Source of the DNA: Clostridiales bacterium
Lineage (GTDB): Bacteria > Bacillota > Clostridia > Oscillospirales > Acutalibacteraceae
DNA length: 46,176 nucleotides
Direction of reading: 5' to 3'
NCBI GenBank assembly: GCA_024693205.1
Contig: JAILLJ010000044.1
Coordinates: forward strand, 1-46,176
The notes below the pieces were generated by a model. That model saw nothing but the letters and a program-made list of their open reading frames with translations, ran no database searches and was not told the DNA's origin. Made by a program: the position numbers and the translations under genes. Below are positions 6,246 to 38,849 of this stretch, in pieces. The number at the start of each line of letters is the position of its first letter. The stretch's first letter is position 1.

Positions 6246-7187
6246 GTGAGCGCTATTTCAACGGGACTTGAACAATACGTATTAAAAAACGGCGAGCCCG
6301 TAGAGGTAGTCGGAAGATATAACGATATGATCGTTTTTCTTTACCACGGACACCGTTTCGTCCGCCCGATAAGCGTTATCGGCACCGAGATCTTCCCGAA
6401 AAGCGATTTTGAAAACACGGCGAAGTCAAAGCCCTCCGAGACGTCCCGCGCCGCGGGAGCGGCTTCTTCCAAGGAAACGAAACAGCCGCAAAAACATTCG
6501 AGAACGAGTAAAAGGATCATTTCCGCCGGCGATACCGTATGCTTTAAATTTGTCGAGACGGGGCGCAAGGCGGTCTATACGATCTCCGAAACAAAAGAGG
6601 GGACGACGTCGCCAGACGGACTTCCCGACGAGTGTACCGTATATAAGGACTCTCCCATCGCTGTGGCGCTGATAGGCAAAAAGCCCAACGAAATAGTGAC
6701 TTTTACATATAACGGCAACGTGATAGTCATTCAGATAATGTCTTTCTTCAAAAAGACGACGGGCATTTATCAGCTGATGAAGGAACAGCGCGAGAGCCAG
6801 AAGGCAATAGAAAAACAAAAGAAACAGGAAGAAAAAATAGCAAGAAAAAGAGGCATTAAGGTCGGCAATACCGTTTGTGTCGAATTCCTTGATACAAACG
6901 AAAAGAAGGCGTTCAAGATCGTCGAGGCATGGGCAATGGTATCTCCGGACGCGACGACAAAGCCCTACAGGCCGACGTCCTACGAAAACAGGATCGAAAC
7001 GGAAGCCAATCCCGACGAAAACAGCATCAGCGAAGCGTCGCCCCTCGCAAAGGTGCTTATAGGTAAGGGCAGAGGAGACGTCGTCAGATACAGAGTCGGT
7101 GAAAATACGACGGAAGTCAGGATAATCGCCTTTTTCGACAGCGACGCCTGGCTCAAAAATCAAAAAAATCATCAGAATGACGAGTGA
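6246..7187 (+). CDS. Protein with two tandem GreA/GreB C-terminal-like domains
   Basis: Two similar segments: ISAGDTVCFKFVETGRKAVYTISE...DSPIAVALIGKKPNEIVTFTYNGNVIVIQIMSFF and IKVGNTVCVEFLDTNEKKAFKIVEA...ASPLAKVLIGKGRGDVVRYRVGENTTEVRIIAFF, both resembling the Gre C-domain (SPLgkALiGKkvGD). Charged linker between them. Start probably the ATT at 6255 (see findings). Confidence 0.7.
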   Translation: MSAISTGLEQYVLKNGEPVEVVGRYNDMIVFLYHGHRFVRPISVIGTEIFPKSDFENTAKSKPSETSRAAGAASSKETKQPQKHSRTSKRIISAGDTVCFKFVETGRKAVYTISETKEGTTSPDGLPDECTVYKDSPIAVALIGKKPNEIVTFTYNGNVIVIQIMSFFKKTTGIYQLMKEQRESQKAIEKQKKQEEKIARKRGIKVGNTVCVEFLDTNEKKAFKIVEAWAMVSPDATTKPYRPTSYENRIETEANPDENSISEASPLAKVLIGKGRGDVVRYRVGENTTEVRIIAFFDSDAWLKNQKNHQNDE

Positions 7188-31396: not shown

Positions 31397-33979
31397 TCAG
31401 CCCTTTGCGTCGTACCAGGTTTTGCCCGAATGAACGTCCGCGGAGAGCTTTACGCTCATTTTCGCGGCGTTTTCCATCTCTTCGCCGAGAAGCCTTGTGA
31501 CCTCGGCGACTTCGTTTTCGGGCGCCTCGACGATAAGCTCGTCGTGTATCTGTAAGATCAGGCGCGACTTCATGTTCGCCTTTTTCATCTTTTCACAGAC
31601 GTTTATCATCGCTATTTTTATAATATCCGCGGCTGTGCCCTGGATGGGCATGTTGCGCGCCACGCGCTCGCCGAATGCCCTGAGATTTCCGTTTGAGGAC
31701 GAAAGCTCGGGGAGGTAACGCCTTCTTTTGAAAAGCGTCTCGGCATAGCCGTTTTCCTTTGCTTTGTTTACTACCTCATGCATATATCTGTCTACGCCGG
31801 AGTAGTGATGGAGATATTCTTTAATATATCTGTCGGCCTCGGCTCTCGATACGCCGATATTTTTCGCGAGCGAGAATGCGCCGATGCCGTAGACGATCCC
31901 GAAGTTGACCGCCTTTGCGCGGCTTCTCATTAGCGGCGTCACCATTTGAAGCGGCATATTGAACACCTGGGACGCCGTTATTGCGTGGATATCGTCGTTG
32001 TTGTTGAAGGCGTCTATCATCACGCTGTCGTTAGCCATATGGGCGAGCACGCGAAGCTCGATCTGGGAATAGTCTGCGTCGACTAAGAGACAGCCCTCCT
32101 TTGCGCGGAAAAACTTTCTCATCTCCCTGCCTGTTTCCGATCGGACGGGGATGTTCTGGAGGTTCGGTTCGGTGGAGGATATACGTCCCGTTCTCGTTTC
32201 CGTCTGATTCAAGGTCGAATGTATCCTCCCGTCGGGGGAGATGACCTTGAGAAGGCCGTCGCAGTAGGTGGATTTAAGCTTTGCGAGCGTCCTGTATTCG
32301 AGGATATCCGCGACGATAGGGTGATCGTCGGCGAGATTTTCAAGGATATCCGCTTTCGTCGAATAACCGCTCTTTGTCTTTTTCGCGGATGGGAGCTTCA
32401 TTTTTTCAAAGAGCGCGTCCGCAAGCTGTTTCGGCGAATTGAGATTGAATTCAAACCCCGCCGCCTCATATATTTTTTCGGTCAGCTCCGATATTTTTGA
32501 GTCGAGCTCGATACCGAAACGCTCGATGCCGTCGCTGTCGACCTCGAAGCCCACGGTCTCCATCGAAGCGAGCACCTTTGAGAGCGGTATCTCTATTTCA
32601 TGGAGCAGCTCCTTCTGTCCGTTTTCGACGATGTTTTTTTCGAGCGCCGCGGAAAGCTCGGGCAAAACGGCGGTCGACGATATCTTTTCATCCTTTACAT
32701 CGGGGACATAAACGCCGTATTCGCCGGCGAGGCGAAGGATATCGTAGTTTCCCGACGAGGGATTGAGCACATATCCCGCGAGCATCGTGTCTGTGCCGAT
32801 GGCGGCAGGCTCGATGTTGTTTCGGTATGCGTAGGCGAAAAGCGGCTTTATGTCCGAGGTGAATTTTATTATCTCGCCGTCTTCGAGAAATTTTTTCATA
32901 AACGCGGGGAACGAGAGGTTTCCGCACGAGAGAGTTATTACTCTGTCGCCGTCAAAGAACCTGATCTCCGATATATATCCGCCCTCATAGTCGGCGGTGA
33001 AGTACGCCTTGCCGCTCTTTTTGAGAAGCTCATAAACCTCGTCCGGCGAAAGATCGGACGTCTCCTCAATTACTTTTTCGGTCGTTTGCGGCCTTTCGGC
33101 GACGGGAAGAGGCTTTAAATTGAGCTTTTCGAGCATCCCGAACATTTCGAGCGAGGTCAGTATCCTTGTTACCTTGACGATATCGGGCCCAGAGGTGAGG
33201 CAGTCGGAAAGCTTTATATCGAGCGGCGCATCTGTGCAGATAGTTCCGAGCGTACGGCTGAGATACGCCATATCCTTATCGGCCTTAAGCTTATCTCTGA
33301 CGCCCTGCTTTACGTCTATCGTATCGATATTTTCATATATGTTATCGACTGAGGAAAAGCGCTGAATGAGGTCGGACGCCGTTTTCTGACCTATTCCGGA
33401 AACGCCCGGTATATTGTCGGAGCTGTCGCCCATAAGGGCCTTGATATCTATAAGCTGACGAGGCGTGATGCCGTATTCCTCAAGTATTTTTTCAGGTGTG
33501 TAGCGGACTGTCTGGGGACGTCCCATTTTTGTCGAAGCCAAAAGGACGGAGGTGTCGTCGCTGACAAGCTGGAGGCTGTCGCGGTCGCCGGTCGCGATGA
33601 CACATTCCGCGCCCTCCCTGCGGCAGAGCGACGAAAGCGTGCCGAGAATGTCGTCCGCTTCAAAGCCCTCTTTTTCGATTATCTTATATCCGAGAGCGGA
33701 TAGAAGCTCCTTTAAGACGGGCATCTGCTGCGCGAGCTCGTCGGGCATACCTTTTCTGCCCGCCTTGTAGCCGTCGTACATTTTATGGCGGAAGGTCGGG
33801 GCTTTAAGGTCAAAAGCGGCGACGACGGCGTCGGGCGAATTTTCGTCTCTCAGCTTAAGAAGGATATTCATAAAACCGTAGATGCCGTTTGTGAATCTGC
33901 CGTCCTTTGTCGTAAGCAGTTTTATCCCGTAAAACGCGCGGTTCACGATGCTGTTGCCGTCGATCACAAGAAGCTTCAT
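31397..33979 (-). CDS. polA: DNA polymerase I
   Basis: 5'-nuclease domain (FDLKAPTFRHKMYDGYKAGR, GDSSDNIPGVSGIGQKTA) and family A polymerase motifs (LLVDADYSQIELRVLAH, RSRAKAVNFGIVYGIGAF, LQIHDELIVEAP). The 3'-5' exonuclease region lacks DxE. Confidence 0.95.
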   Translation of the reverse strand: MKLLVIDGNSIVNRAFYGIKLLTTKDGRFTNGIYGFMNILLKLRDENSPDAVVAAFDLKAPTFRHKMYDGYKAGRKGMPDELAQQMPVLKELLSALGYKIIEKEGFEADDILGTLSSLCRREGAECVIATGDRDSLQLVSDDTSVLLASTKMGRPQTVRYTPEKILEEYGITPRQLIDIKALMGDSSDNIPGVSGIGQKTASDLIQRFSSVDNIYENIDTIDVKQGVRDKLKADKDMAYLSRTLGTICTDAPLDIKLSDCLTSGPDIVKVTRILTSLEMFGMLEKLNLKPLPVAERPQTTEKVIEETSDLSPDEVYELLKKSGKAYFTADYEGGYISEIRFFDGDRVITLSCGNLSFPAFMKKFLEDGEIIKFTSDIKPLFAYAYRNNIEPAAIGTDTMLAGYVLNPSSGNYDILRLAGEYGVYVPDVKDEKISSTAVLPELSAALEKNIVENGQKELLHEIEIPLSKVLASMETVGFEVDSDGIERFGIELDSKISELTEKIYEAAGFEFNLNSPKQLADALFEKMKLPSAKKTKSGYSTKADILENLADDHPIVADILEYRTLAKLKSTYCDGLLKVISPDGRIHSTLNQTETRTGRISSTEPNLQNIPVRSETGREMRKFFRAKEGCLLVDADYSQIELRVLAHMANDSVMIDAFNNNDDIHAITASQVFNMPLQMVTPLMRSRAKAVNFGIVYGIGAFSLAKNIGVSRAEADRYIKEYLHHYSGVDRYMHEVVNKAKENGYAETLFKRRRYLPELSSSNGNLRAFGERVARNMPIQGTAADIIKIAMINVCEKMKKANMKSRLILQIHDELIVEAPENEVAEVTRLLGEEMENAAKMSVKLSADVHSGKTWYDAKG

Positions 33980-34016: not shown

Positions 34017-34380
34017 TCACGGAGTTTTGTTGGATAGTGGGAAGCCGCCCCCAAAAGCCTTCCATTTGGAGAAGGTGGCCGAGCGAAGCGAGGTCGGATG
34101 ATTCGGGCACATCCGCCGTCGGTGGCGGATAAAGGATGTGACCGAATAGGAAGAAATAGGGAGTATCGCGAAGCGCTCCAAGCGAGCGAGACGACCATAT
34201 TTCTGACCGGAGGGAATACGTTTATTCTTGATGCCAACCGATAGCGTCATCTGGAAACGGCGGCAACCCCACAGTCAGCCGCAAGGGCGGCTGACAGCGT
34301 CTCGCCTGCCGGCTCGGTCGGCGCTTCTGCCGTTGGCAGAGGTGTCCACCGGACACCCGCGCCCCTTACACAGGGGAGCC
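34017..34380. repeat. Non-coding hairpin-rich repeat-like mosaic
   Basis: Series of stems: ATCCGCC-gtcggt-GGCGGAT, GTCAGCCGC-aagg-GCGGCTGAC (34274-34295), TCTGCC-gtt-GGCAGA (34326-34340), GGTGTCC-acc-GGACACC (34341-34357), CCCCT-tacac-AGGGG (34362-34376); no supported CDS. Confidence 0.55.
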
Positions 34381-34402: not shown

Positions 34403-34437
34403 AAAAAAGGCTTGCCCTGAAAACAGGTCAAACCTTT
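34403..34437 (-). terminator. Intrinsic terminator downstream of mini-ORF A
   Basis: Minus strand AAAGGTTTGaCCTGttttCAGGgCAAGCCTTT followed by a T-run. Confidence 0.75.
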
Positions 34438-34459
34438 CAAAGCAGATAAAAACAGACGA

Positions 34460-34606
34460 TCAGATCTCAAGGATACCGTCGATCATGTTGTCGGAAAGAC
34501 TTATGGTTCCGCCGGAATCATATCCGCCGGGGCCGCTTGAAGCCGCGATAACGTCCTCAACGTCGTAACGGATCACGGTAAAAGCGGGCTTTTCATAATC
34601 ATTCAT
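34460..34606 (-). CDS. Mini-ORF A, 48 aa, YxKP...(D/E)xE family peptide
   Basis: Translated by hand: MNDYEKPAFTVIRYDVEDVIAASSGPGGYDSGGTISLSDNMIDGILEI*. GGGGTG SD 8 nt upstream, terminator downstream, and sequence similarity to mini-ORF B. Below the size cut of the ORF track. Confidence 0.6.
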   Translation of the reverse strand: MNDYEKPAFTVIRYDVEDVIAASSGPGGYDSGGTISLSDNMIDGILEI

Positions 34607-34673
34607 GGCAAACACACCCCAAAAATCAAATGTATATATAAATCACACTTGGTGAGATAAAATTAGTGTTTGG

Positions 34674-34692
34674 GGGGCGGAAAAACCGCCCC
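34674..34692. other. GC-rich hairpin between the two mini-ORFs
   Basis: GGGGCGG-aaaaa-CCGCCCC perfect 7-bp stem. Confidence 0.6.
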
Positions 34693-34711
34693 GCCGGGTC
34701 AGCTGAAAGGA

Positions 34712-34840
34712 TCAGTTAAGGTCGATGATGTCGATCGAAGAATCAAAGCCGTTTACGTGCTCCTGATCAAGGCCGCTAACGAGGATCGCCTCTTCAATAT
34801 CGAACTTCTCAACCTTAAGTGAGGGTTTTTGATAAGTCAT
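34712..34840 (-). CDS. Mini-ORF B, 42 aa, YxKP...(D/E)xE family peptide
   Basis: Translated by hand: MTYQKPSLKVEKFDIEEAILVSGLDQEHVNGFDSSIDIIDLN*. AAAGGAG SD 7 nt upstream of ATG; paralogous to mini-ORF A. Confidence 0.65.
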   Translation of the reverse strand: MTYQKPSLKVEKFDIEEAILVSGLDQEHVNGFDSSIDIIDLN

Positions 34841-34871
34841 TATATTACTCCTTTCAGAAATATTATATAGA

Positions 34872-34900
34872 CCAACAAAAACTACGTAAATTTTTGTTGG
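34872..34900. terminator. Hairpin between the secreted repeat protein gene and mini-ORF B
   Basis: CCAACAAAAA-N9-TTTTTGTTGG perfect 10-bp stem. Confidence 0.5.
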
Positions 34901-34915
34901 AGAATACCATGGTCA

Positions 34916-36184
34916 TCAGTCGCCGAACGGATCGTCGACGTTGTCCTGTTCAAACTCTCCGGTGTATCCGAAATCAACATAGTTGACGGTATGGATATCA
35001 CTGTATACGGGGTCGAGGACATGCCCGCTCGAATCTTTAAGTATCACATATGCGCGGGCATAAACAAGGGGATAGATCGTTTCTGCGTTTCCCGTCTCGG
35101 CGGCGGTAACCGTCCGCCTCCAGTTTCCGACGGATATATCGAAGGTACCGTTGTTTTCGTTATTTTGAGAGGTGGCCTTTGCGACGGAATTACCGCCGAT
35201 CACAAAGGCGGAGGGATTTGCTCCCACATCGGTCTTAAGCGTCAGAAGGATTCCGTTTTCGATAACGGTATATGTCCTGAAAATGCTTCGCTCCGAATAG
35301 ACCGTGACCGATCCGCTCGTAAAATTGGGGACGTCGGCGCTTATACGTATCGCGATGCCGTTGCCGGGTTCCGCGCCGTAGATCGGGATAAGCTTGATGT
35401 CGTTCGTGACATAAAAGCTGTAATTCTCGTAATAGCTCGCTACGGAAAGAGTCGAGTCGTTATTGTCGATAACAGCCCAATAGGAGAAGGGTTCGCCGTT
35501 GTGTGTCGTAGCGGCTCTTACTTCCGCGACGTCAAGGCGGTTATATACGGTGACCGAAGTCTGATTGTCGATACTGTCGAGGAACGTCTTTACGACGAAC
35601 TGCTGGTTTTTAACGACATAGACCGGATAGACGAAAAGATTTTCAGTGCTCGCGGCGATCTGGTCCTGAGTGTAGCTCCATTCGCCGGTAAATGTATAGC
35701 CGTCGATGGCGGGTACGTTTTCGGGATATTCGTCGGGATATCCGACGTCGCAGTCGTAGGCGCTTAAGATGTTGTTGGCCATCGACAGATAGGAGATATA
35801 GTGCGAGACCGGCGTATTGTTTTCGTCTAAGATCGAAAGCGCGAATACAGCCTGAAGGCGAATATCGGTCGCGGCGGTAAACGAATAGGACGCGTCAAAG
35901 CTGAAAATACGGTTTGACTCGACGTTTACCCAATAGAGGAAGGTGGTATTGGCGCTCGGAACAGCGGTTAGCGATATAGGCGTACCGGGAGCAACACTTA
36001 CGGAGCCGACCTGGTTAGTGACGACGACATTGCCGTTCAGCTCTATACGTCCGAAGGGAACGGAGCTGAGGTCGATCGTCACATTGGAGGCCTCGGCGGA
36101 AACAGAAAAGCAGAAAGCGAATGCTCCGAAAACGAGCAGAACACTTAAAAAAACAGAGACAAGCTTCTTTGATCTGCTTTTCAT
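34916..36184 (-). CDS. Secreted protein with InlB-B-like/bacterial repeat segments
   Basis: Signal peptide MKSRSKKLVSVFLSVLLVFGAFAFCFSVSA; ISLTAVPSANTTFLYWVNVESNRIFSFDASYSFTAATDIRLQAVF and a similar later unit; SD GGAGGGGG upstream of ATG at 36184; no sortase motif. Confidence 0.7.
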   Translation of the reverse strand: MKSRSKKLVSVFLSVLLVFGAFAFCFSVSAEASNVTIDLSSVPFGRIELNGNVVVTNQVGSVSVAPGTPISLTAVPSANTTFLYWVNVESNRIFSFDASYSFTAATDIRLQAVFALSILDENNTPVSHYISYLSMANNILSAYDCDVGYPDEYPENVPAIDGYTFTGEWSYTQDQIAASTENLFVYPVYVVKNQQFVVKTFLDSIDNQTSVTVYNRLDVAEVRAATTHNGEPFSYWAVIDNNDSTLSVASYYENYSFYVTNDIKLIPIYGAEPGNGIAIRISADVPNFTSGSVTVYSERSIFRTYTVIENGILLTLKTDVGANPSAFVIGGNSVAKATSQNNENNGTFDISVGNWRRTVTAAETGNAETIYPLVYARAYVILKDSSGHVLDPVYSDIHTVNYVDFGYTGEFEQDNVDDPFGD

Positions 36185-36337
36185 GTATACCCCCTCCTTG
36201 AAACATACAAATACACTATTACATATTTGTTCACTGAGGATTATAACATGCAAATCAAGTCTTGTCAATCGTTTTTTTAAAATATTACAAAACTATTACA
36301 AAAAACAGTGATTTTAACGGAAAAATCAGGCAGAAAT

Positions 36338-37693
36338 TCACTTTTTGACGATCGTCGCAATGGTCTTCTCGTCGTATTGAGATGAAATAATTCCACCTTT
36401 TGAAAGCCGCGAGTAGATACCGCTGAATTTTCGATTATAACAAAACAAACCGGTGATATTACGAAATCCCCGTATCTCCGCATCCTTTTCAGAAAAGTCG
36501 ATATTTTCCGAGACATAGGGCGGACAATATTCCTGAAGAAGATAATTTTTGCCCGATCCCTTTGAAAGTACGTTTTTCCACTCCTTCGGCGAAAGGTCGA
36601 TCCCGGCGTAGACGCCGCGCGACGCGTAAAGGTCAAACGGCTTTATCAGCCAGGACGATCTGTTTTGAGCAGCGTCGAATTTCTCTATGTTTTCGTCGTT
36701 AAGAACGTATGTTGCGGGGATGTGCGCCGCTATAAAGTCGTTTTCGCTTTTTGAAAGAAGCTTTTTTGTCTCGTCAAAATGAAGGACTGCGAAGATATAT
36801 TTATTATGGATTATCTGCGTCGGGAACGAGCCGATAACGCATACGGCGTTGTCCTTAACCGCAGATATGAAGGGCGTCACCTCGTCGTATCTGTCCATTA
36901 TATCGGCGGTGACTGCGCGCCTGTAAACAGCGTCGACGCGCTTTCCCGACGGAGATTTGAGCGAGCCGTTTTTGTAGGAAAAGGAGCGTATATCGCATAT
37001 TTCGGCGGATATGCCGTTTCGTTTGAACGCTTCCTCAAATCGGATAAATTCGTTTGCCGTCCCGCGGTCGTTGAAATCGGCTATGGCGACATGGGGACTG
37101 TCCGTCCTTTTGTTGTCGTATGTATCGTAGATGTTTTTAAATTCCGCGACCCAAGAGTCAAAAAGCTCGAAGGAATAGTATTCCTCACCCTCCGCCGCGT
37201 TCATAAACGCCGTATTGAGAGGGAGAAGGGAGTTAAGGATCCTGTCCTCGTTCATGGCGCTCGTGCCGTCGGTATTTATCTCGCAGAATTTGAAGTCGCC
37301 TGTTTCCTCGTTAAAGAAAATATCTATCCTCGATATCGGGATATATGTCTTATAATGTACGCCCGAAAGGATAAGCTCTCTGAGCTCCTTTGAAAAGGGG
37401 AACAGAGCGCGGTACGCGGGCGACACGAGGTATTCATGTATCACCTTGTCAAATATAGAAAAGCATGTTTCGGTGATGTTTTTGAACAGCCCGACGTCCT
37501 TTTCGGTGAATATCTTGGGCACGGAGAGCGTCTGGACGCATCTGTCGCCGACGTGAAGATCGGACGCCATGATCCGATCTTTTATTTCGTCAAAATCCCT
37601 TTTTGCCGTCTTTTTATCGGCGAGGATATTTTCGATGATCGTTTTTTCAGTAAGCAAGAGTAATGAGTCCTTTCTCAACGATATTTTTTTCAT
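36338..37693 (-). CDS. Glutathionylspermidine synthase-like ATP-grasp protein
   Basis: FKFCEINTDGTSAMNEDRIL, SSWLIKPFDLYASRGVYAGIDLSPKEWKNVL, YLLQEYCPPY; the extended ORF overlaps the upstream gene, so a downstream TTG start is possible. Confidence 0.65.
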   Translation of the reverse strand: MKKISLRKDSLLLLTEKTIIENILADKKTAKRDFDEIKDRIMASDLHVGDRCVQTLSVPKIFTEKDVGLFKNITETCFSIFDKVIHEYLVSPAYRALFPFSKELRELILSGVHYKTYIPISRIDIFFNEETGDFKFCEINTDGTSAMNEDRILNSLLPLNTAFMNAAEGEEYYSFELFDSWVAEFKNIYDTYDNKRTDSPHVAIADFNDRGTANEFIRFEEAFKRNGISAEICDIRSFSYKNGSLKSPSGKRVDAVYRRAVTADIMDRYDEVTPFISAVKDNAVCVIGSFPTQIIHNKYIFAVLHFDETKKLLSKSENDFIAAHIPATYVLNDENIEKFDAAQNRSSWLIKPFDLYASRGVYAGIDLSPKEWKNVLSKGSGKNYLLQEYCPPYVSENIDFSEKDAEIRGFRNITGLFCYNRKFSGIYSRLSKGGIISSQYDEKTIATIVKK

Positions 37694-38849
37694 CTTCGTT
37701 TAGATTTTCGAGAGCTATGCGCGTTATCCTGTCGGCAAGCCGGGACGCTTTGACGCCGTAAATGTCGCCGGAAAAGCCTTTTAAGGCTATATCGTCCTCC
37801 GCGTCCTCTATATCGCCCTCGCGGACGTCGAATCCCTTAAGGATATCATCGACTGTTCCGGAGCTTGAAAAGATCCCTTTGATAAGTCCGAGATAGAACA
37901 TAAAACGCTCCGGAGGCATACTGTCGGCGCAGCGTATCTCGACGTATCTGCGTAGTCTGACGTCGGGGAAAACCATTGACGAATAATGATCGGCGAGGGC
38001 AGGAAGCTCTTCTTCGCCGTATTCGCGCATGACCTCGAGCGCCGTTTTGTCGGTAGGGGAGTACACGCCGTTTTTGACGGAAAAGATCGCGGGACGCGAC
38101 AGTATATAGTCGGCGTATTTTGAAAAGCCGAAGTCGTCGTCAAAGACGCCGTTTACGATGCACGTCCTTTTTTCGTCCACGTTTCGCCAGACGGATTTTC
38201 GGATAAGCGGATTTTTATTCGGCAGCCCCTCGAAAACGGGGGAGTTACCGGAAAGAAGCTCAAAAAGAGGCGTTAAAACATAGGCGCACCTGAATTTTTT
38301 TATGAAATCGCTTTCGTCAAAATAGTCTATCGAGACTTGACAGGCGGCAGTGCCGCGCATCATGTTTATCCCGCATTTCCCGGTTTTCTCGAAATATTTG
38401 TCCATGTAATAATAGCGCTTTTTCGGTATCAGCTCGATTTCGCCGACGCGGGAATGAGGAAGATATCCGAGCGTCGTAAGCTCGTATCCGAGAGGGGAAA
38501 TGACTTCGTCGACAATGTCCTTAAATCTGTTATATGCCGAAAGGACGTCAATGAGCTTTTCTTTCGGAGCGATACTGACCTCAAGCTGTGCGCCCGGCTC
38601 GAGGGTAAGCGATATCTCGCCGTCTGAAAGCCCGAGAAGACGGCCGTTTTCGTATACCGAGTCGGTGAAGAAGGGGAGGAGACAGTTTAAGATATACTCT
38701 GTCCCGCGCGTTTCGGAATATTGGATATTCCGCTTTGTCGCGCGGTCGGTGATGAAATGCTCAAGCTCCAAGCCGAGCATCATCCTTTTGTCGCTTTTGC
38801 ATCCGCTTTCAAAATACGACAAAAGCGCCTGTTTAGCTTTTTCCATCAA
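37647..38849 (-). CDS. GCS2-family glutamate-cysteine ligase-like protein
   Basis: LGLELEHFITD, GEISLTLEPGAQLEVSIAP, MMRGTAACQVSIDYFDE, RYVEIRCADSMPP motifs of the GCS2/EgtA-type ligases. Confidence 0.8.
   Translation of the reverse strand: MMEKAKQALLSYFESGCKSDKRMMLGLELEHFITDRATKRNIQYSETRGTEYILNCLLPFFTDSVYENGRLLGLSDGEISLTLEPGAQLEVSIAPKEKLIDVLSAYNRFKDIVDEVISPLGYELTTLGYLPHSRVGEIELIPKKRYYYMDKYFEKTGKCGINMMRGTAACQVSIDYFDESDFIKKFRCAYVLTPLFELLSGNSPVFEGLPNKNPLIRKSVWRNVDEKRTCIVNGVFDDDFGFSKYADYILSRPAIFSVKNGVYSPTDKTALEVMREYGEEELPALADHYSSMVFPDVRLRRYVEIRCADSMPPERFMFYLGLIKGIFSSSGTVDDILKGFDVREGDIEDAEDDIALKGFSGDIYGVKASRLADRITRIALENLNEDEKNIVEKGLITLAY

Follow-up and report, generated by a model that had tools for sequence, protein, structure and literature searches.

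Two mini-ORFs behind a secreted-protein gene in a clostridial genome most likely encode precursors of LPP-like phosphorylated peptides

Linear polyphosphorylated peptides (LPP) are RiPPs described in May 2026 from Bacilli, with the lppAKBSDN genes of Paenibacillus alginolyticus (Popov et al. 2026; PMC13381572). Their gene set comprises an HprK-like kinase, a discrete RiPP recognition element (RRE), a signal-peptidase-like peptidase, an ABC transporter and an NTP transferase. The precursor has a YxxP leader and is presented by the RRE, the kinase polyphosphorylates Ser3 of the core, and the leader peptidase LppS is signal-peptidase-like with Ser29, His68 and Asp93; each cluster holds one to three precursors, and the biological role is stated as unknown by the discoverers (PMC13381572). 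We found no mention of Clostridia, secreted proteins, surface or orphan precursors in the main text of PMC13381572, and the library searched held no other paper under the LPP name. Among the phosphorylated lasso peptides, the precursor BsfA has its YxxPxL motif at positions -17 to -12 and is phosphorylated at Ser3 (Duan et al. 2023; PMC10368454). Here we analyze two mini-ORFs, A and B, on a contig of 46,176 nucleotides (JAILLJ010000044.1 of assembly GCA_024693205.1, a Clostridiales bacterium), hereafter the window, and argue that they are real genes which most likely encode precursors of phosphorylated, LPP-like peptides.

A preliminary description of the window had reported two short minus-strand ORFs, each with its own SD, just downstream of a secreted repeat protein and ending at a clear terminator. 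Both ORFs with the claimed translations are indeed present (Table 1). Mini-ORF A (42 aa, ATG start) has a strong SD, AAAGGAG, at 34854-34848, while mini-ORF B (48 aa, ATG start) has a weaker SD-like GGGGTG; they match the profile search of their own genome with E 1.6e-10 and 1.9e-11, respectively, and read YQKPSL and YEKPAF in the YxxP region. Gene calls were mechanical, and for the gene directly upstream of mini-ORF A the start, ATG at 36184, was read from the sequence (stop at 34916). Its product has a signal peptide; the word repeat holds only for a single recognised domain, a divergent InlB B-repeat (PF18998, E 4.4e-5). The terminator was confirmed, with a stem followed by a T run after mini-ORF B. 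The perfect 12-bp palindrome at 34872-34900 is a possible operator or 5' mRNA structure, and as an operator it might allow regulation of A and B independently of the secreted-protein gene; the stem-loop between A and B is a candidate attenuator or mRNA end stabiliser. Beyond the terminator, positions 34050-34360 are GC-rich and palindrome-rich and look like a dispersed repeat element, and the polA gene that follows stands in the same gene order in the corresponding loci of two sister genomes (L034 and L035). At 36338-37693 the window encodes a 451-aa protein without any Pfam match, adjoining a GCS2 (glutamate-cysteine ligase-type) gene at 37647-38849; this protein may be an undescribed partner, for example a glutathione-synthase-like ligase. 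The two were rejected as maturases of the mini-ORFs, since a different gene precedes the secreted protein in L034 and L035.

Table 1. Features of the mini-ORF cassette and its flank in the window
Feature	Position	Strand	Details
Mini-ORF A, candidate LPP-like precursor	34712..34840	-	leader MTYQKPSLKVEKFDIEEAILVS, tail GLDQEHVNGFDSSIDIIDLN
Mini-ORF B, second candidate precursor	34460..34606	-	leader MNDYEKPAFTVIRYDVEDVIAAS, tail SGPGGYDSGGTISLSDNMIDGILEI
Secreted protein, 422 aa	34916..36184	-	signal peptide, one InlB B-repeat-like domain, shared C-terminal domain
Sigma-70-type promoter, TTGACA-17-TATAAT with extended -10, 5' of secreted-protein gene	36240..36268	-	consensus 12/12
Promoter-like site TTTACG-17-TATAAT just 5' of mini-ORF A	34862..34890	-	10/12, consensus match only
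Perfect 12-bp AT-rich hairpin overlapping -35 of the promoter-like site 5' of A	34872..34900	-	-12.1 kcal/mol, z -5.3
GC-rich stem-loop between A and B, without T run	34672..34695	-	fold of 34665-34725, z -3.2
Rho-independent terminator downstream of mini-ORF B	34405..34438	-	-17.3 kcal/mol, z -3.9, stem then T run
polA (DNA polymerase I), the gene that follows; as a conserved flank it marks the orthologous site	31397..33979	-	PF00476

The N-terminal motif shared by A and B is not due to chance, as a two-row profile built from both matched in 10/10 other genomes of the genus. With a head profile made from the hits (A2, later A5), a scan of one genome per species gave 79 loci in many Clostridia, among them rumen and gut Ruminococcaceae and Lachnospiraceae, and none in viral contigs; a head-only profile detected the family in 44/393 genomes of the class and in 35/118 relatives. 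The head consensus is MxxYxxPx[LMI]xVxxFDVEDVITxS[GA]. Its FDVED..I..S part is forced by the scan pattern, while the Tyr, the Pro and the hydrophobic position are independent of it, and among 73 heads these were found in 70, 55 and, for a hydrophobic residue two positions after the Pro, all 73; the Ser at Tyr+19 is kept in 21 of the 26 heads which break the pattern. Pfam and NCBIfam gave nothing convincing for the mini-ORF peptides, the head profile gave only chance hits against the PDB, and a literature search for the head motif strings gave no match. Thiazolylpeptide and poxvirus hits of the peptides were set aside as weak leader or chance matches.

Purifying selection on the head, which the preliminary description had named as support for a real family, was observed to be strong in nine ortholog groups, with pN/pS 0.19 for the head and 0.60 for the tail. 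At the polA-linked site of the sister genomes the two mini-ORFs are found again, in unchanged order, A with orthologues and B with a positional counterpart whose tail differs and, in the sister species, ends in GGNPIQEGLNNLYENFL. Thus a conserved head with diverging tails, as first described, is borne out, but the tails are not random, for D[FL]N or ELN closes the tail in the orthologues of A. Tails among those listed are acidic or glycine-rich without Cys, some of just 7-15 residues, and members have the 35-200 aa length used for precursors, apart from a few slightly shorter ones (31-34 aa). Different precursors at three loci (L037 6518-6679, L035 about 6800-7153 and L051 3683-3994) have in common the tail form NPIQxxLxxxxxFxxxxxxxF, an amphipathic-looking C-terminus which recurs beside different partner proteins.

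No recognisable RiPP maturase had been noticed near the mini-ORFs, and the window indeed contains none; the genome encodes the enzymes elsewhere, on different contigs. This genome is a MAG, 84% complete, whose contigs are not joinable, so that acting in trans means here from at least several kilobases away. On contig C12 a secreted protein whose C-terminus is of the same kind as that of the partner protein in the window is followed directly by a row of three, an HprK-like kinase, a PqqD protein (PF05402, E 3.5e-15) and an S26-like peptidase; a second HprK-like kinase is on C27 and an NTP_transf_5 enzyme on C52 (E 2.2e-51). No mini-ORF head was found beside the enzyme cassettes of this genome (L186, L189). 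Nine other genomes of the genus yielded the kinase, and all nine have the same row, the cassette of this genus being reduced to kinase, RRE and peptidase. In 18 other genomes, spanning several families, no more than 2.5 kb separates a head from the kinase; the usual order is head-kinase-PqqD-S26(-ABC-NTase), and in L167-L172 precursor, kinase, discrete PqqD-type RRE, signal-peptidase-like peptidase, ABC transporter and NTP transferase stand in one cluster. In four sister genomes two overlapping PqqD-like frames follow one another between kinase and peptidase (L209 6317-6911, L210 6277-6809, L211 5277-5808, L217 6507-7066), which would be a split, duplicated or frameshifted RRE.

The closest solved relative of the PqqD protein is the lasso RRE TbiB1 (3.5e-7), followed by 9x8z_B (0.0066), the LPP RRE LppB. 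AlphaFold models match the fold of HprK/PEPCK for the kinase and of the signal peptidase complex SPC-A/SPC-C for the peptidase; the kinase fold is given as predicted, because the kinase profile found nothing significant in the PDB by sequence. In the peptidase Ser32 and His71 are both conserved with the 39-residue spacing of Ser29/His68 in LppS (PMC13381572), while the mapping of the catalytic Asp is uncertain, the invariant Asp lying 15 residues after the His against 25 in LppS. Kinase and mini-ORF occur together across genomes: a full-length HprK-like kinase was found in 40/44 head-positive against 18/349 head-negative genomes of the class (Fisher p 5e-36), and in 33/35 against 6/83 of the relatives (p 9e-21), counts and p-values which ignore shared ancestry among the 393 class genomes and 118 relatives. 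The exceptions include those 18 class genomes with kinase and no head detected, and G335, with heads and no kinase; one of the two misses among the head-positive relatives is a 59%-complete genome.

Compared with LPP, the clostridial precursors are likewise short, with a conserved YxxP leader and variable tails; their heads carry the RRE-binding leader motif YxxPx[L/V/I/F/A], and the kinase, RRE and peptidase of the core gene set (C12), together with NTP_transf_5 (C52), are present in the genome of the window. The host differs, Clostridia here and Bacilli there, and so does the leader, which does not follow the published logo YxxPxVLxHQxIxFETxxS: it reads ...FDVEDVITxS, HQ and FET are absent, and the agreement is confined to YxxPx[hydrophobic] and, downstream of it, T and S. 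The Tyr-to-Ser spacing is 19 here and 18 in LPP. The organization is also unlike that of LPP, as the precursors are mostly orphan, away from the enzymes; a genome can have up to 18, each following a gene for a secreted protein. A and B are on contigs other than those of the enzymes, and a precursor within the cluster was found in the 18 other genomes with linked heads. Because the full published leader logo is not matched, we file A and B as a variant of LPP and not as LPP proper.

The spacing of 19 residues equals that from Tyr(-17) to the phosphorylated Ser3 of BsfA (PMC10368454), and phosphorylated lasso peptides (paeninodin and BsfA; PMC10368454, PMC8498205) have, similarly, a YxxPxL leader, the motif which lasso-type RREs bind and which the heads match, a PqqD-like B1 (RRE), an HprK-like kinase and often an NTP transferase. 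Nevertheless, that A and B are true lasso precursors is hardly credible. The YxxPx[L/M/I] leader, the Thr shortly before the tail and the kinship of the PqqD protein to lasso-type chaperones are what such precursors should have, but the lasso leader peptidase B2 (PF13471) had no match in the genome of the window (G000), the cassette genes that were read completely showed neither B2 nor, by eye, a macrolactam synthetase, which is likewise the case in LPP, the leader peptidase is of the signal-peptidase-like kind, and the tails lack a consistent ring pattern of Gly1 to Asp/Glu7-9. Leaders of thiazolylpeptide precursors (TIGR03892) are weakly similar (best E 0.0025, 7/72 members); these precursors have a core rich in Cys, Ser and Thr, unlike the tails here, and cyclodehydratase or dehydratase genes were not recognised in the cassettes read, so that this class was rejected. 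A double-glycine (PCAT) leader was likewise rejected, as the hydrophobic positions do not fit.

The location behind a secreted protein, noted at first for this one locus, proved to apply to the family in general. A same-strand signal-peptide protein precedes 58 of the 65 mini-ORFs with a scorable upstream gene, against a background of 96/396 among the other genes in the same loci, by a signal-peptide test which is crude; the same-strand gene lies a median of about 33 nt upstream (79 loci). The upstream proteins have beta-helix, List-Bact/InlB, Big or dockerin domains. Two types of C-terminal domain cover 56/92 partner proteins and 36/92 fit neither; the type found in the window accounts for 31/92, and it also ends secreted proteins adjoining the kinase-RRE-peptidase cassettes of the genus. 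In two genomes a protein which looks by sequence like SLH (S-layer homology) lies between mini-ORF and kinase (L170 6121-7278, L172 6112-7386), which would be another hint of a role at the cell surface. The in-frame 13-nt gap of the G001 paralogues suggested that the stop codon of the secreted protein might be read through into the mini-ORF, but this was dropped, as L046 has another frame and the gap is of widely varying length.

This pairing could also mean that the mini-ORF is a detached leader, an adaptor which recruits RRE and kinase to the secreted protein next to it, with the C-terminal domain of that protein as the real substrate. Almost every mini-ORF indeed lies behind a secreted protein, the C-terminal domain is common to secreted proteins beside mini-ORFs and beside kinase cassettes, and some tails measure no more than 7-15 residues. 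We nevertheless consider this unlikely, for the mini-ORF itself keeps a Ser where its phosphorylated relatives have theirs, its tail is under some constraint, and the partner proteins are not uniform at the C-terminus (at least two types, with 36/92 in neither) and appear to be Sec-exported whereas the enzymes are without signal peptide. Less likely still are unmodified signalling or regulatory peptides, exported to control the neighbouring surface-protein genes: such a role would suit the operon position, the promoter-like site with an operator-like palindrome 5' of A and the multiple paralogues with private tails, but it leaves unexplained both the YxxP motif and why RRE, kinase and peptidase are linked to the family and co-occur with it, and neither a regulator nor a double-glycine leader was seen.

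The preferred reading is that A and B are precursors of an LPP-like RiPP pathway whose enzymes act in trans, which we regard as highly probable. The leader-core layout, earlier called speculative, gains support from the YxxPx[L/M/I] RRE-binding motif and from the genetic tie to the HprK-like kinase, the PqqD-type RRE and the signal-peptidase-like peptidase. A PqqD-type RRE made from another contig would grip the leader and present the peptide to kinase and protease; the kinase would phosphorylate the near-invariant Ser at Tyr+19, the protease would cut off the leader near the I-T-x-S boundary, another group may be added by the NTP_transf_5 enzyme, and the tail would leave the cell through a transporter. 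We infer these steps, from RRE binding through phosphorylation and leader cleavage to export, by homology. As each precursor is made beside one secreted protein, the finished peptide probably acts with that protein at the cell surface, though this partnership is the least certain part of what we infer. We tentatively suggest, as a possibility somewhat short of an even chance, that a single kinase-RRE-peptidase set works centrally on as many as 18 scattered precursors, every one of them reserved for the secreted protein whose gene precedes it, so that every surface protein has a phosphorylated peptide partner as anchor, cofactor or gate.

We found no published account of orphan precursors, as many as 18 in one genome, which lie downstream of genes whose signal-peptide products often have a C-terminal domain in common with the secreted proteins beside the cassettes. 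The finding points to a wider, differently organised clostridial branch of LPP, common in rumen and gut genomes, and as its precursors lie apart from the enzymes, RiPP searches centred on clusters would overlook this branch. The nearly one-to-one pairing with secreted proteins is a concrete and testable pointer to the role of the peptides; the proposed system of dedicated peptide partners, if true, would give LPP-type RiPPs a function in cell-surface assembly.
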